Assembly: GCF_022271405.1 (NCBI RefSeq)
Contig: NZ_JAJNAL010000001.1
Coordinates: forward strand, 1-64,000
Reading direction: 5' to 3'
DNA: 64,000 nt
Origin: Rhodopseudomonas infernalis
GTDB taxonomy: Bacteria; Pseudomonadota; Alphaproteobacteria; Rhizobiales; Xanthobacteraceae
Positions 5,217 to 13,253 of the stretch are shown one piece after another (within the stretch, counting starts at the first letter, position 1; each line of letters opens with the position of its first letter). Under the pieces are notes generated by a model, which made no database searches, was not told the origin of the DNA, and saw only the letters and a list, made by a program, of their open reading frames with translations. Position numbers and translations under genes: made by a program.

Positions 5217-5759
5217 CTACATCCCCTCCGCGCCGCGGCTAATCGCTGCGACGCCGGTGCGGACGACTTCGACGAGGCCGAGCGGGCGCATCAGTTCGAC
5301 GAACTGATTGATCTTCGAACTGTTGCCGGTGATCTCGAACACGAAGCTCTCGGTCGAAGCGTCGATCACCCGGGCGCGAAACGCTTCGGCGAGGCGCAGC
5401 GACTCGACGCGGTGGTCGCCGGTGCCGCGCAGTTTGACCATCGCCAGTTCGCGCTCGATCGAGCGGCCGGTCAGCGTCATGTCGACGACGCGATACACCG
5501 GCACCATGCGGTCGAGCTGATGCTTGATCTGCTGGATCACCATCGGCGTGCCGGTGGTGACGATGGTGACGCGCGACAAATGTTTCTGGTTTTCGGTTTC
5601 CGAGACGGTGAGGCTCTCGATATTGTAGCCCCGCCCGGAGAACAGTCCGATCACCCGCGCCAGCACGCCGGGCTCGTTCTGCACCAGCACAGATAGCGTA
5701 TGCGTCTCGTTCGGGTCCTGGCGCTCTTCCATGAAGTAAGCGGATGCGGGCTGGGTCAT
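5217..5759 (-). CDS. ilvN: Acetolactate synthase small (regulatory) subunit
   Basis: Regulatory subunit that gives valine feedback inhibition to acetolactate synthase. Product is 180 residues: an ACT domain at about 20-95 (TLSVLVQNEPGVLARVIGLFSGRGYNIESL region) and the ALS small-subunit C-terminal domain after about 100. It follows ilvB on the same strand after a 224-nt gap filled by a palindromic repeat, and is probably in the same operon behind the attenuator at 7839-7957. Also called ilvH in some genomes. Confidence 0.96.
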   Translation of the reverse strand: MTQPASAYFMEERQDPNETHTLSVLVQNEPGVLARVIGLFSGRGYNIESLTVSETENQKHLSRVTIVTTGTPMVIQQIKHQLDRMVPVYRVVDMTLTGRSIERELAMVKLRGTGDHRVESLRLAEAFRARVIDASTESFVFEITGNSSKINQFVELMRPLGLVEVVRTGVAAISRGAEGM

Positions 5760-5983: not shown

Positions 5984-7762
5984 TCACACCAGCGCCTTGC
6001 CGCCGGCGAAGGCGGCGGCGGTGGCTTCGTCGGTGGCTTCGGCGGGCAGCAGCATCTCGTTGTGCGCCTTGCCCGACGGGATCATCGGGAAGCAGTTCTC
6101 CAGCGCCGCGACGCGGCAGTCGAACAGCACCGGCTTCTTCACCTTGATCATGTCCATGATCGCGCCGTCGAGATCGGCCGGCTTGAACACCTGCATGCCG
6201 ACGCCGCCATAGGCCTCGGCGAGCTTGACGAAGTCCGGCATCGCCTCGGTGTAGGAATGCGACAACCGGTTGCCGTGCAGCAGTTGCTGCCACTGCCGGA
6301 CCATGCCCATGTACTGATTGTTGAGGATGAAGATCTTGATCGGCAGTTCGTACTGCACCGCCGTCGCCATCTCCTGCATCGTCATCTGCACCGAGGCATC
6401 GCCGGCGATGTCGATCACCAGGCTGTCGCGATGCGCGACCTGGACGCCGAGCGCCGCCGGCAGGCCGTAGCCCATGGTGCCGAGGCCGCCCGAGGTCATC
6501 CAGCGCTTGGGCTGTTCGAAGCCGTAGAACTGCGCCGCCCACATCTGATGCTGGCCCACTTCGGTGGTGATGTAAGTGTCGCGGCCTCGCGTCGCTTCAT
6601 ACAGCCGCTGGATCGCGTATTGCGGCATGATCACGTCGCTGTTCTTCTTGTAGGCCAGCGAATTGCGCGCGCGCCAGGTCGCGACCTGGTGCCACCACGC
6701 CTTGATGTCGGGCTTCTTCACTTCGGCCTTGAACAGCGCCAACAAATCCGTGAGCACGCTGGCGACGTCGCCGATGATCGGGACGTCGACGCGGATGTTC
6801 TTGTTGATCGACGACGGGTCGATGTCGATGTGGATCTTCTTGGCATTCGGCGCGAATGCGTCGGTGCGGCCGGTGATGCGGTCGTCGAAGCGCGCGCCGA
6901 TGCACAGCATGACGTCGCAACCGTGCATCGTCATGTTGGCCTCGTACGTGCCGTGCATGCCCAGCATGCCGAGCCAGTTTTTGCCGGATGCCGGATACGC
7001 GCCGAGCCCCATCAGCGTCGAGGTGATCGGGAAATCGGTGACCTCGACCAGTTCGCGCAGCAGCCGGCAGGCCTCGTCGCCGGAATTGACCACGCCGCCG
7101 CCCGAATAGATCACCGGCCGCTGTGCGCCCGCGAGCAATGCCAGCGCCTTGCGGATCTGGTTCGGGTCACCCTTGGTGATCGGCTTGTAGGAGACGTGGA
7201 CGTCGTCCTTGCGCGGCGGATGATAGGTGCCGGTGGCGAACTGCACGTCCTTCGGCACGTCGACCACGACCGGTCCCGGACGGCCCGAAGTCGCGACGTA
7301 GAACGCCTCGTGCAGCACGCGCGCCAGATCCTTGATGTCGCGCACCAGCCAATTGTGCTTGGTGCACGGCCGGGTGATGCCGACGGTGTCGCATTCCTGG
7401 AACGCGTCGTTGCCGATCAGATGCGTCGGCACCTGCCCCGTGATGCAGACGATCGGGATCGAATCCATCAGCGCGTCGGCGAGCGGCGTCACCATGTTGG
7501 TGGCGCCCGGCCCCGAGGTCACCAGCACGACGCCCGGCTTGCCGGTCGAGCGCGCATAGCCCTCGGCGGCGTGGCCGGCGCCCTGCTCGTGGCGAACCAG
7601 GATGTGCTGCACGTCGGACTGCTGGAAGATCTCGTCATAGATCGGAAGCACCGCGCCGCCGGGATAGCCGAAGATGTGTTCGACGCCGTGATCCTTCATC
7701 GCGCGGACGATCATCGCGGCGCCGGTCATCTGGTTCGGATCGTGGCTGGTGCTATCGCTCAT
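5984..7762 (-). CDS. ilvB: Acetolactate synthase large (catalytic) subunit
   Basis: ThDP-, FAD- and Mg-dependent enzyme condensing two pyruvates, or pyruvate with 2-oxobutyrate: first common step of branched-chain amino acid synthesis. Product is 592 residues from ATG at 7762 (MSDSTSHD); the frame extends upstream over the attenuator but is not coding there. ThDP PYR domain about 20-180 (FGYPGGAVLPIYDE), central domain about 215-350, ThDP PP domain about 390-560 with GDASVQMTMQEM and NNQYMGMV as the ThDP/Mg motif. Expression is probably set by the leader peptide and terminator 77-195 nt upstream. Confidence 0.97.
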   Translation of the reverse strand: MSDSTSHDPNQMTGAAMIVRAMKDHGVEHIFGYPGGAVLPIYDEIFQQSDVQHILVRHEQGAGHAAEGYARSTGKPGVVLVTSGPGATNMVTPLADALMDSIPIVCITGQVPTHLIGNDAFQECDTVGITRPCTKHNWLVRDIKDLARVLHEAFYVATSGRPGPVVVDVPKDVQFATGTYHPPRKDDVHVSYKPITKGDPNQIRKALALLAGAQRPVIYSGGGVVNSGDEACRLLRELVEVTDFPITSTLMGLGAYPASGKNWLGMLGMHGTYEANMTMHGCDVMLCIGARFDDRITGRTDAFAPNAKKIHIDIDPSSINKNIRVDVPIIGDVASVLTDLLALFKAEVKKPDIKAWWHQVATWRARNSLAYKKNSDVIMPQYAIQRLYEATRGRDTYITTEVGQHQMWAAQFYGFEQPKRWMTSGGLGTMGYGLPAALGVQVAHRDSLVIDIAGDASVQMTMQEMATAVQYELPIKIFILNNQYMGMVRQWQQLLHGNRLSHSYTEAMPDFVKLAEAYGGVGMQVFKPADLDGAIMDMIKVKKPVLFDCRVAALENCFPMIPSGKAHNEMLLPAEATDEATAAAFAGGKALV

Positions 7763-7838
7763 GGTGGGCTCCGGAGGCGCTGTGTGGCGCTGACGTTCGG
7801 GTGGTTCGGACAAGCTGAAGTCGAAGCGTACGGACAAT

Positions 7839-7862
7839 AAAAAAGGGCCCTTCAAAGGCCCT
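7839..7862 (-). terminator. Attenuator terminator upstream of ilvB
   Basis: On the minus strand AGGGCC, a 7-nt loop, and GGCCCT are followed directly by six T residues, an intrinsic terminator. It lies between the leader peptide (7892-7957) and the ilvB start (7762), the position of an amino-acid attenuator. Confidence 0.85.
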
Positions 7863-7864
7863 CA

Positions 7865-7913
7865 GCGCACCGTCCGTTCGCGGGGTGGAGTTTATCCACC
7901 CCCGGCGGTGCGC
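7865..7913 (-). promoter_or_regulatory. Alternative hairpins of the ilv leader (pause / antiterminator region)
   Basis: Two nested inverted repeats: an outer GCGCACCG (7913-7906) with CGGTGCGC (7872-7865), and an inner GGGGTGGA with TCCACCCC (7902-7895 with 7889-7882). The leader-peptide stop codon lies in the inner loop, so ribosome position could decide which structure forms before the terminator. Which pairing is the antiterminator was not worked out. Confidence 0.65.
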
Positions 7914-7957
7914 CTGGGTACGATAACGAGAAGCAGATCGGAAATTTTGTGTCGCAT
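7892..7957 (-). CDS. ilvL: ilv operon leader peptide (21 residues)
   Basis: ATG at 7957 to TAA at 7892 encodes 21 residues containing DLLLVIV: three Leu, two Val and one Ile codon in seven, with another Ile near the N terminus. This density of the three pathway end products, followed by competing hairpins and a U-tract terminator before ilvB, is the standard build of ribosome-mediated attenuation. Low charged Leu, Val or Ile tRNA would stall translation and favour read-through into ilvB. It is shorter than usual gene-finder cutoffs. The symbol is used by analogy. Confidence 0.85.
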   Translation of the reverse strand: MRHKISDLLLVIVPRRTAGGG

Positions 7958-7989
7958 GTGTCGGCTCAGCTTCCCAAAGGTTGCGCGGG

Positions 7990-8017
7990 ACCATACCCCC
8001 GAAACCTCGAATGTCAA
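7990..8017 (-). promoter_or_regulatory. Sigma-70-type promoter of the ilvB leader
   Basis: TTGACA (8017-8012), a 16-nt spacer and TATGGT (7995-7990) on the minus strand. Transcription would begin near 7983, about 25 nt before the leader-peptide start codon, as expected for an attenuated operon. Confidence 0.65.
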
Positions 8018-8125
8018 GGCGTGTGACCGCCGTAAGGATCACACCTTAGCCGGATCTCGGCACTGTCTTGAGATATAGGTCAATCTATCGCACCTTCGTG
8101 AACGGTACCGACTATTGATCTTTGA

Positions 8126-8977
8126 TTATCCCGACTTCCGTATTGTAGCAGTTCGAAAGGCTGCTGAGATCGCCGTCTCGTGAGTTTCGATTTCAACTAC
8201 TGTTTCCGAAATTAGTGGTTGCGAAACCGTCGTTGCCTTCTTTCTTGGACGCTCAAGTACGGTACTATGAGTGGCAAGGGAGTGAATGCGCGTCCAAAAA
8301 TAATCATCGTACGGCCTCAAGTCGGTCCACTCTTTCCCGCCAAGCCGATATGTCCAAAGCTTACCAATAATCGCCGCGATCCAATCGGCAGCCTGGATAT
8401 TTTGATTGAGGTGACTTTCCACTTCGAAGGGTGGGCTAGCAAGATGTCGTGCGGGATCACGGCCATACATTGTCTTCACCGCCGTTTCCAAGAGCTCTCG
8501 CCGAGCGGAGTGCTCATCAACGACAATTACAAAGTTCTTGTTCTGCTCAGCGCAATAAGCCTCCAGTTTACGGATCGCATCTGAAAAAACAGTCTTGTAC
8601 AAACCGTTTGGGTTCACATCTTCAGTTGCCGTGATCTTCTCTCGACCATGATAGAAGATCTTCCCGCCACACTTCCTTACTCTATTTAGAATACGGAAGG
8701 TTGTCTGCCTGATTTCGGGATAGAGTACTATGGACTTCGCGGTATACAGATTCGAGCCATGCTTTTCCCATTCGTACGCTGGCTTCTTTGATTTCTTGAT
8801 CTCGAAGTTGAGGAGTTCTTCTTTTCTTTGAAGAAAGAATGATGCGAATGGGCGGATTGCCTCTTCGGGGAAAATGATTCCCCCAATCCCAAAGATAGGG
8901 CTACTGTTGAACTTGGGATGAGCCCTACTAAAATAAGGCCCTACGTGTCCAAACTCGTCGAGATAAACGAACAGCAT
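8126..8977 (-). CDS. DUF3800 domain protein
   Basis: Protein of 283 residues, function unknown. Family hallmarks are visible: YLDEFG at residues 5-10, VIVVDEHS near 150, and QAADWIAAIIGKLW near 200. The acidic residues resemble an RNase H-like metal site, and family members often sit in mobile or defence neighbourhoods, but no activity can be claimed. The gene is clearly richer in A and T than its neighbours and splits the housekeeping run ilvB-miaA, which suggests recent arrival. A 210-nt leader with two strong hairpins and an EcfG-like promoter lies upstream. Expression could read through toward the ilv promoter. Confidence 0.8.
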   Translation of the reverse strand: MLFVYLDEFGHVGPYFSRAHPKFNSSPIFGIGGIIFPEEAIRPFASFFLQRKEELLNFEIKKSKKPAYEWEKHGSNLYTAKSIVLYPEIRQTTFRILNRVRKCGGKIFYHGREKITATEDVNPNGLYKTVFSDAIRKLEAYCAEQNKNFVIVVDEHSARRELLETAVKTMYGRDPARHLASPPFEVESHLNQNIQAADWIAAIIGKLWTYRLGGKEWTDLRPYDDYFWTRIHSLATHSTVLERPRKKATTVSQPLISETVVEIETHETAISAAFRTATIRKSG

Positions 8978-11017: not shown

Positions 11018-11504
11018 TTCGCACGCGGAACAGTATCGTCGCTTCGATGAAGCGAAGCCTGCCTGCTCTCCATCGTGCCGAAGCGGCAGCGTAGCGCACG
11101 ACCCCTCGCCCTCACGCCTCGTCATTCCGGGTTCACGCTACGCGCGCCCCGGAATGACCCGGTATTGCAGAGCGCTCGTTGCCGTGCCGTGCGCTCTCCG
11201 CGAACGCGCTTCAATACTGGCCCCTCCGCTTTCGCGAAGGATCACGGCTGCGCTGTTTGGAACCGCATAGGTCGAGCGGCGACACCTCGGCTCGTCCCAA
11301 CTGGTACGTCTCGCATGGTCAATGCGTTGTTAACGGCGATCGCTCACCGCGCGCCGGATTTGCAGGAAAAGCGAACCTGAACCCTATGTTCACACCACTC
11401 GCGGCCACTCGCAAGAGGTAGTGACTGCGCCACACTTAACAGTTTCTCAGCATCGGCTGATCATAGTCGCGGCAACGAAGAAAGAATTCAACGAGTCACA
11501 GAAA
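11018..11504. other. Gap between serB and the HerA-like gene
   Basis: No gene seen. It holds a short hairpin just after serB (TCGCTTC/GAAGCGA, 11039-11055, no T-run), the palindromic repeat at 11123-11236, and the possible GTG start at 11421 of the next gene. Confidence 0.6.
11123..11236. repeat. Palindromic intergenic repeat (GTCATTCCGG family)
   Basis: GTCATTCCGGG... and ...CCCCGGAATGAC form inverted ends around 11123-11159. They are followed by a degraded arm containing GGTATTGCAGAGCG and CAATACTGG, related to the element at 5833-5934. The same CATTCCGG ends occur at 37503-37639. Confidence 0.65.
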
Positions 11505-13253
11505 ATGGCAGAAGCTGTTTCAATGCCGCTGTTCGGCAAGATCATTTCGGTGCGCGGCTCGATGGCCCGCGCGGGCATCCTACCCGAAAGTCGGCTGTCG
11601 CAGGCCGCGATGCGCGCCACCGTCGGCCGCTTCATCAGCATCCGCGCGGCGACGTCGACGATCATCGCGATGATCACCGAAGTATCGTGTGAGGACGTCG
11701 TCGGCGACAGCTACATCGCCAGCGCGTCGGTCGATCTGCTCGGCGAGATTCTGCCCGGCCCGGTGCGACCGAAGTTTCAGCGCGGCGTCACCAGCTATCC
11801 GACGATCGGCGACGCGGTCCAGCCGATCAGCAGCGACGATCTGCGTATCGTCTACGCACCCTCCGGTTCCGACCAGATCGATGTCGGCACGCTGCAGCAG
11901 GACCCATCGGTGATCGCTTATGTCGACATCGAGGAGATGCTTTCGAAGCACTTCGCCGTCCTCGGCTCGACAGGCGTCGGCAAATCGACCGGCGTGTCGC
12001 TGCTGCTCAACGAGATTCTGAAATCGCGGCCCACGCTGCGCCTCTTCCTGCTCGACGTGCACAACGAATACGGTCGCTGCTTCGGCGACAAGGCGCTGGT
12101 GCTCAATCCGCGCAACCTCAAGCTGCCGTTCTGGCTGTTCAATTTCGACGAGATCGTCGACGTGCTGTTCGCCGGACGGCCCGGCGTGCCGGAAGAGCTC
12201 GACGTGCTGGCCGAAGTGATCCCGATCGCCAAGGGCCTCTACGTACAATACACCAGCTCCGACCGCATCGGTCTGAAGCGCCTTGATCCCAAGTCGATCG
12301 GCTACACAGCCGATACGCCGGTGCCGTATCGGCTGGTCGACCTGATCTCGCTGATCGACGAGCGCATGGGCAAGCTCGAGAACCGCTCGTCGCGCATCGT
12401 CTATCACAAGCTGATCTCTCGCATCGAAACCGTGCGCAACGATCCGCGCTACGCCTTCATGTTCGACAACGCCAATGTCGGCGGCGACACCATGGCCGAA
12501 GTGATCAGCCATCTGTTCCGCCTGCCCGCCAATGGCAGGCCGATGACCATCATGCAACTCGCCGGCTTCCCCGCCGAAGTCGTCGACTCCGTGGTTTCCG
12601 TGCTGGCCCGGATGGCGTTCGATTTCGGGCTGTGGAGCGATGGCGTCTCGCCGCTGCTGTTCGTCTGCGAGGAAGCGCATCGCTACGCGAGCGCCGACCG
12701 CACCATCGGCTTCGGCCCGACCCGCAAGGCGGTGTCGCGTATCGCCAAGGAAGGCCGCAAATACGGCGTGTATCTCGGCCTGGTCACGCAACGCCCCGCC
12801 GAACTCGACGCCACTATCTTGTCGCAGTGCAACACACTGTTCGCGATGCGGCTCGCCAACGACCGCGATCAGTCGCTGCTGCGCTCGGCGGTTTCGGACG
12901 CAGCCGCCAACCTGTTGTCGTTCGTGCCGTCACTCGGCACCCGCGAAGTGCTGGCGTTCGGCGAAGGTGTTGCGCTGCCGACGCGGCTGCGCTTCAAGGA
13001 AGTTCCGTCGCAGCAAGTACCCCGCTCGGAAGCGGCGATCTCGACAGCGCCGTCCGCCGCCGCCGGTTACGACATACATTTCGTCGGCGCCGTGCTCGAA
13101 CGCTGGCGCGGCGCGACCTCGCATCGCGACGTGCCCAACGATCAGGGCTTCACCGAGCGCCCACTGGCCCGCACCCTCGATGCACCGATGCTGCAGCCGT
13201 CGCTCGGCCTCGACCCGGATCGCTTCTCGCTGCTGAAAAAACCGTTGCGCTGA
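11505..13253 (+). CDS. HerA-like / DUF87 ATP-binding protein
   Basis: Putative hexameric DNA-translocase ATPase of the HerA-FtsK class, 582 residues. An N-terminal HAS-barrel-like region (GKIISVRGSMARAGIL, about 9-25) precedes the ATPase: Walker A GSTGVGKST near 155, Walker B LLFVCEEAHRY near 390, and VTQRPAELDATILSQCNTLFAMRL near 425, a typical sensor/arginine region. I chose ATG at 11505 (MAEAVS); a GTG at 11421 preceded by AGAGG would add 28 residues. No NurA nuclease, Sir2 or DUF4297 partner is adjacent, so it is not one of the known HerA defence pairs. Function unassigned. Confidence 0.85.
   Translation: MAEAVSMPLFGKIISVRGSMARAGILPESRLSQAAMRATVGRFISIRAATSTIIAMITEVSCEDVVGDSYIASASVDLLGEILPGPVRPKFQRGVTSYPTIGDAVQPISSDDLRIVYAPSGSDQIDVGTLQQDPSVIAYVDIEEMLSKHFAVLGSTGVGKSTGVSLLLNEILKSRPTLRLFLLDVHNEYGRCFGDKALVLNPRNLKLPFWLFNFDEIVDVLFAGRPGVPEELDVLAEVIPIAKGLYVQYTSSDRIGLKRLDPKSIGYTADTPVPYRLVDLISLIDERMGKLENRSSRIVYHKLISRIETVRNDPRYAFMFDNANVGGDTMAEVISHLFRLPANGRPMTIMQLAGFPAEVVDSVVSVLARMAFDFGLWSDGVSPLLFVCEEAHRYASADRTIGFGPTRKAVSRIAKEGRKYGVYLGLVTQRPAELDATILSQCNTLFAMRLANDRDQSLLRSAVSDAAANLLSFVPSLGTREVLAFGEGVALPTRLRFKEVPSQQVPRSEAAISTAPSAAAGYDIHFVGAVLERWRGATSHRDVPNDQGFTERPLARTLDAPMLQPSLGLDPDRFSLLKKPLR

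Follow-up and report, generated by a model that had tools for sequence, protein, structure and literature searches.

A probable branched-chain amino acid attenuator upstream of ilvBN in Rhodopseudomonas infernalis and its apparent relation to the Atu_C8 RNA family (RF02502)

The window, i.e., the whole 64,000-nt stretch of Rhodopseudomonas infernalis DNA analysed here (assembly GCF_022271405.1, contig NZ_JAJNAL010000001.1, positions 1 to 64,000), carries on its minus strand the acetolactate synthase genes ilvB (large subunit, 5984-7762; NCBIfam NF006581, 1193.8 bits) and ilvN (small subunit, 5217-5759; NCBIfam NF008864, 227.2 bits), which follow each other in this order, with ilvC located farther downstream. 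Situated upstream of ilvB on the same strand is a leader peptide ORF of 21 residues, MRHKISDLLLVIVPRRTAGGG, which extends from an ATG to a TAA stop codon (7957-7892, stop codon at 7894-7892) and is supported by the sequence as well as by relatives. The stop codon is located in the loop of an inner hairpin formed by GGGGTGGA (7895-7902) and TCCACCCC (7882-7889). This hairpin is enclosed by an outer hairpin with the 5' strand at 7904-7914 (core GCGCACCG, 7913-7906) and the 3' strand at 7864-7875 (core CGGTGCGC, 7872-7865), and all four strands were assigned by fold prediction and covariation. Sequence, fold, and site search agree on a subsequent intrinsic terminator, GAGGGCCTT-TGA-AGGGCCCTT with a T run (7839-7863), whose stem covers 7863-7843 and whose six T residues lie at 7844-7839; ilvB starts at 7762, about 80 nt past this terminator. 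Leader peptide, hairpins, and U-tract terminator had been placed before ilvB by the original prediction, and a sequence check on the minus strand found its coordinates and sequences to be right. Elsewhere in the window (11421-13253, plus strand) a HerA-type ATPase is encoded, for which the top NCBIfam match is the anti-phage-associated HerA model with 212 bits, far below the cut-off of 850.

The sequence TTGACA-N16-TATGGT (8017-7990, minus strand, 10/12 matches) is the sole promoter-like site in 7500-8400, where 0.3 are expected, and no such site was found between the terminator and ilvB in the scan of this region. It had been predicted as a promoter ending about 25 nt before the peptide. The site is indeed present, but 32 nt separate the end of its -10 hexamer from the ATG; a 5' UTR of 25 nt would result if transcription started about 7 nt past the -10. 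A conserved CGCGCAACCTTTGGGAAG (7970-7987, minus strand), near-invariant in 14 close relatives, lies at what is presumed to be the 5' end of the transcript. Among these 14 relatives its distance to the ATG is not frame-preserving, and the R. infernalis genome contains one exact copy, along with four places with two to three mismatches compared to three for a reversed control pattern. A longer peptide, extended in frame on the upstream side by AQPLGS or RATFGK residues, was rejected, due to the fact that the same nucleotides occur in differing frames among relatives. In the clade of the window the -10 is mostly separated from the ATG by 30-34 nt. Considering the 46 other Hyphomicrobiales loci (among L015-L081), this distance is only 7-12 nt in 43/45 cases, so that transcription of the leader would begin at the start codon or close to it. 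Farther upstream, a 283-residue ORF without NCBIfam match at E 1e-10 is located on the same strand as the leader (8126-8977, minus). On its own the terminator-like site is unremarkable, with one found in 7500-8400 and 0.9 expected in shuffles. The fold of the whole leader reaches -61.2 kcal/mol (z -3.96), and none of 200 shuffles was equally stable.

Conservation of the hairpins was assessed in alignment A2, which comprises 40 close-clade leaders, 39 of them distinct; the count covers the inner and the outer hairpin, the terminator stem being left out. In total, 90.2% of the cells are paired, and changes on both sides were observed in 9 out of 19 pairs, amounting to 45 cells versus 8.4 expected. 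Among 500 shuffles none reached the observed value of the covariation measures, except for the number of pair types, which was reached by four. When the pairing was slid by 1-3 columns, at most 7 cells with changes on both sides were counted. Judged from the aligned sequences, the hairpins are conserved by covariation, and both of them exhibit the compensatory changes sought by the conservation check suggested along with the original prediction; a translating ribosome would presumably disrupt them.

The codons CTG CTT CTC GTT ATC GTA (7919-7936, minus strand), which occupy positions -14 to -9 counted from the stop codon, are the putative control codons according to codon conservation and codon usage. 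They were counted in 40 of 43 close-clade candidates (L011, L099, and L110 were dropped, as they gave no strict call). The counted leaders were preselected for a Leu/Ile/Val-rich stretch and the residue identities are thus partly given by construction: in the close clade Leu, Ile, or Val is found at codons -9, -10, and -12 in 40/40, at codon -14 in 38, at codon -13 in 34, and at codon -11 in 30 leaders (Ala in 9), and in the 46 other Hyphomicrobiales leaders at codons -9 and -10 in 46/46 and at codons -11 and -12 in 45. That the block sits at a fixed position with regard to stop codon and hairpins is not forced by this selection; the block holds its place, and the proposed check on leader-codon conservation did not refute the claim. 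Compared to five ORFs of the window, the block is enriched in codons that are rare elsewhere: CTT accounts for 38 of 74 Leu codons versus 4 of 205, and GTA for 44 of 98 Val codons versus 3 of 173, counts that are not independent events because the leaders are related to each other.

Three features recommend attenuation, namely a cluster of Leu/Val/Ile codons in a short ORF that precedes a branched-chain amino acid operon, an intrinsic terminator between this ORF and the structural gene, and hairpins conserved by covariation that a translating ribosome would be expected to disrupt. With high confidence we regard the leader as a ribosome-mediated transcription attenuator of ilvBN, at which the ribosome, as far as sequence comparison can tell, very probably senses Val, Leu, and Ile and switches the genes on or off. 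Transcription would start just past the promoter. As long as the tRNAs for Leu, Val, and Ile are charged, translation would proceed to the stop codon located within the inner hairpin, where the ribosome would cover the hairpin strands; with the ribosome at this position the terminator would form and RNA polymerase would stop, resulting in a leader RNA of roughly 145 nt. If one of these tRNAs were short, the ribosome would halt in the CTG-CTT-CTC-GTT-ATC-GTA block, the downstream RNA would refold, the terminator would be disfavoured, and ilvBN would be transcribed. For the close clade, fold prediction offers a candidate for the antiterminating fold, i.e., the outer hairpin extended by pairing of CCC (codon -8; 7916-7918, minus strand) with GGG (7861-7859) in the 5' arm of the terminator.

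The ribosome-mediated attenuation by Leu, Val, and Ile that had been proposed for this leader is hence supported, but the antiterminator needed by the established design was absent from the predicted anatomy, and no classical antiterminator was established by masked folding, arm complementarity, covariation, or front folding. The leader resembles those of E. coli ilvBN (ivbL), ilvGMEDA, leu, thr, trp, and his with respect to the control-codon leader peptide, the hairpins, and the U-tract terminator. E. coli thr, ilvG, trp, and leu hold a strand that is more complementary to the 5' arm of the terminator than shuffles are, whereas the window leader and its relatives do not. This complementarity, computed with a leader region that begins 45 nt ahead of the stop codon, is below that of shuffles in 35/40, 45/46, and 15/24 leaders, and above it in E. 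coli thr, ilvG, leu, and trp (z -5.0, -2.8, -1.7, and -1.7); E. coli his (z -0.7) and ilvB (0.2) are not clearly above shuffles. The contrast diminishes when shorter regions are taken, and starting from 12 nt before the stop codon E. coli ilvG and leu yield z values of 0.7 and 0.6, so that the outcome depends on the region chosen.

An alternative type of attenuation would know only two states and have no separate 2:3 strand: the outer hairpin extended by CCC:GGG would serve as antiterminator unless the ribosome has passed the control codons, and, unlike in the trp paradigm, a leader without start codon would be ON. The otherwise poor upstream complementarity to the terminator arm is in line with it, and so is the predicted pairing of CCC with this arm before the 3' arm is made, which occurs in 39/40 close leaders with a mean probability of 0.95 (front at -36) but only in 14/46 and 4/24 of the other leaders. 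A covariation of codon -8 with the terminator arm across clades (CCC with GGG, GGA with UCC) was rejected, since own pairs scored -3.69 versus -3.65 for permuted ones and 110 out of 300 permutations were as good. Masked folding, i.e., the equilibrium fold with the RNA masked from the 5' side and the minimum probability of the terminator, points in both directions. The close clade has a median minimum of 0.60, with the terminator least dominant when CCC is free and below 0.5 in 11/40 leaders, and the other two groups have medians of 0.92 and 0.88; in the window itself the terminator never falls below 0.91. Minima for E. coli trp, thr, his, leu, ilvG, and ilvB are 0.96, 0.99, 1.00, 0.98, 0.83, and 0.63, and as these proven attenuators also keep the terminator dominant, masked folding is not decisive for an antiterminator. 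Codons -9 and -10, the most conserved ones, are too near to CCC, and a ribosome halted there would cover it, which is a difficulty for the extended helix. We consider the two-state switch possible, yet rather doubtful, and keep the extended helix as a model-based antiterminator candidate in the close clade. The ilvB copies may work without a classical antiterminator.

At the gathering cut-off no Rfam match was found in the window. Below it, the leader region 7829-7949 (minus strand) matches RF02502 (Atu_C8) over its full length (model positions 1-122, 42 bits, E 2e-07). The gathering cut-off of 50 bits is not reached and by the Rfam rule the window is not a member, but homology is supported by the match over the full length and by the common location before ilvB. 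This match is the only one in the R. infernalis genome. Seven of 11 scanned loci exceed the RF02502 cut-off, the leaders of Rhizobium, Agrobacterium, Sinorhizobium, and the Brucella group with 119-124 bits and three others with 50-99 bits; L002, L003, L008, and L073 do not exceed it. Among 150 genomes of the order, in 144 of which ilvB was located, RF02502 was detected in 77 (22 over the cut-off), and with strict filters 73 gave no match; none of 14 control genomes had one. Except for a single case (see below), all RF02502 matches in these genomes (78/79) share the strand of ilvB and precede this gene by 26-167 nt. Genome G122 possesses two ilvB genes (contigs C1559 and C1049), each with its own upstream RF02502 match. 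Model R1, which was built from A2, yielded 60 matches in 59/150 genomes, 58 of them before ilvB; of the remaining two, one is the transporter copy described below and one is situated at a contig end in a genome in which ilvB was not found. Given the 78/79 matches just upstream of ilvB, the "Rhizobiales sRNA" RF02502 is the ilvB leader in nearly all matches examined. This RF02502 model, made by others, likewise detects the element upstream of ilvB across the order, irrespective of the preselection of our leaders. In the portions of the literature covered by our search, no link of Atu_C8 or RF02502 to ilvB was found: one paper, in the part consulted, uses RF02502 as a benchmark family, and "ilv" does not appear in the accessible texts on Agrobacterium RNAs (three papers) and Rhizobiales sRNAs (one paper).

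The filing as Atu_C8 "sRNA" suggests a different reading, in which a separate trans-acting small RNA gene with its own promoter and terminator is located before ilvB by coincidence. Promoter and terminator indeed form a self-contained unit, the full-length match is to a family typed as sRNA, and the trp attenuator RNA of S. meliloti (rnTrpL) does act in trans, according to the part of the source consulted. Nevertheless, such a gene is highly improbable, because nearly all RF02502 matches in the order adjoin ilvB on its upstream side and on its strand, the Leu/Ile/Val-rich ORF is retained, and no promoter-like site was found between the terminator and ilvB. By analogy, an additional role in trans beside attenuation is possible.

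Regions upstream of ilvB in other genomes were searched for the arrangement of an attenuator. The leader ORF had to span 8-60 codons and to contain, within 7 residues, no fewer than 5 (strict) or 4 (relaxed) Leu/Ile/Val; a stem with T run had to lie 5-90 nt downstream of it. As regards relatives of the same family with an ilvB identity of at least 84%, this arrangement was found in 27/29 (strict) and 28/29 (relaxed) cases. The 91 upstream regions of the family, which correspond to 93 out of 100 genomes with an ilvB match minus the genome of the window itself and one partial match, contain it in 51 (strict) and 73 (relaxed) cases, and the best 80 other loci among the matches listed in 58 (strict) and 75 (relaxed). 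Thus, even by the relaxed rule no leader was detected in 18/91 family regions and 5/80 of these best loci among the matches listed. Dinucleotide shuffles contained it in 0/855 (strict) and 1/855 (relaxed) cases, and a separate set in 0/513 (strict). By a lenient rule applied without shuffle control, a promoter-like site precedes 40/40 close leaders. One could imagine that the upstream gene (ORF 8977-8126) has an ordinary terminator here, next to an ORF without role, as the upstream ORF is on the same strand and a lone terminator-like site is expected here, but this chance reading has practically no probability left and, on sequence grounds, appears already contradicted by conservation: the promoter-like site separates the upstream ORF from the leader here and also precedes the close leaders, the hairpins covary, and shuffles hardly ever produce the layout seen in 73/91 family regions. 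The observation is confirmed and not due to chance.

Attenuators of this kind are known. Vitreschak et al. (2004) are said to have predicted, for the alphaproteobacterial ilvB/ilvIH leader, an attenuation that depends on branched-chain amino acids. In alphaproteobacteria, a leader peptide of ilvB was described by a 2004 comparative study, cited in PMC1273637; as far as the consulted part of the source tells, the Vitreschak leader is alike in having a leader peptide before ilvB, with no known difference from the one reported here. In case of the Caulobacter crescentus ilv operon, attenuation through a leader coding sequence is mentioned in the consulted part of PMC4117421, which cites a 1994 study by Tarleton. 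Going by this description, it comes from the same class of bacteria as the window leader and shares with it Ile/Val codons (in tandem in Caulobacter), a Rho-independent terminator, and an acetolactate synthase operon. Attenuation of such operons in Gram-negative bacteria is reviewed in PMC6123439, again to judge from the part consulted. RF02502 Atu_C8 shares the full-length match and the place before ilvB, and differs in being filed as an sRNA gene. Due to the alphaproteobacterial and Caulobacter precedents, the kind of element is known and the locus of the window is a further member; what goes beyond the known kind is the reassignment of RF02502 and a copy before a transporter gene.

This copy is the single RF02502 match in the 150 genomes of the order that does not precede ilvB. 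It is located in another family, where the gene downstream of it encodes a member of the Bcr/CflA transporter family (TIGR00710, 217.1 bits at a cut-off of 200.9). In that family, RF02502 was detected in 89 out of 101 genomes, 14 of which have two matches. Twenty regions were examined: for 13 further two-match genomes the stronger match was taken, to which three single and four second matches were added. Each of the 13 stronger matches, as well as one single match, lies before a transporter ortholog (67-85% identity), and the other two single matches as well as the four second matches precede ilvB. The transporter copy is represented by L204 (140-257, plus strand), and also occurs in L206-L218 and L220. 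At a threshold of E 1e-120, transporter matches exist in 17/101 genomes; the 15 with at least 70% identity are the 15 with the leader, and next to the two distant transporters (61% and 54% identity) no adjoining RF02502 match was found. Transporter leaders mostly read [FML]VVVG followed by RMG, with the exceptions of L215 (LAVVG), L218 (IIVG), and L209 (MIVVG), and GTA at codon -9 is invariant in 15/15. By its sequence, the transporter leader is probably paralogous to the ilv-type attenuator, with Val-Val-Val in most cases in place of the mixed block. It is tempting to speculate, and somewhat favoured by these data, that the ilv attenuator is a reusable cassette that was copied before a Bcr/CflA-type transporter and that, in its ilvB copies, perhaps works without a classical antiterminator.

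The locus of the window itself would be an ordinary regulator. For the Hyphomicrobiales, expression data filed under Atu_C8 could serve to indicate the supply of branched-chain amino acids. If the cassette reading is true, a gene of an efflux family would be switched on through valine-tRNA charging or through a ribosome-stalling drug.
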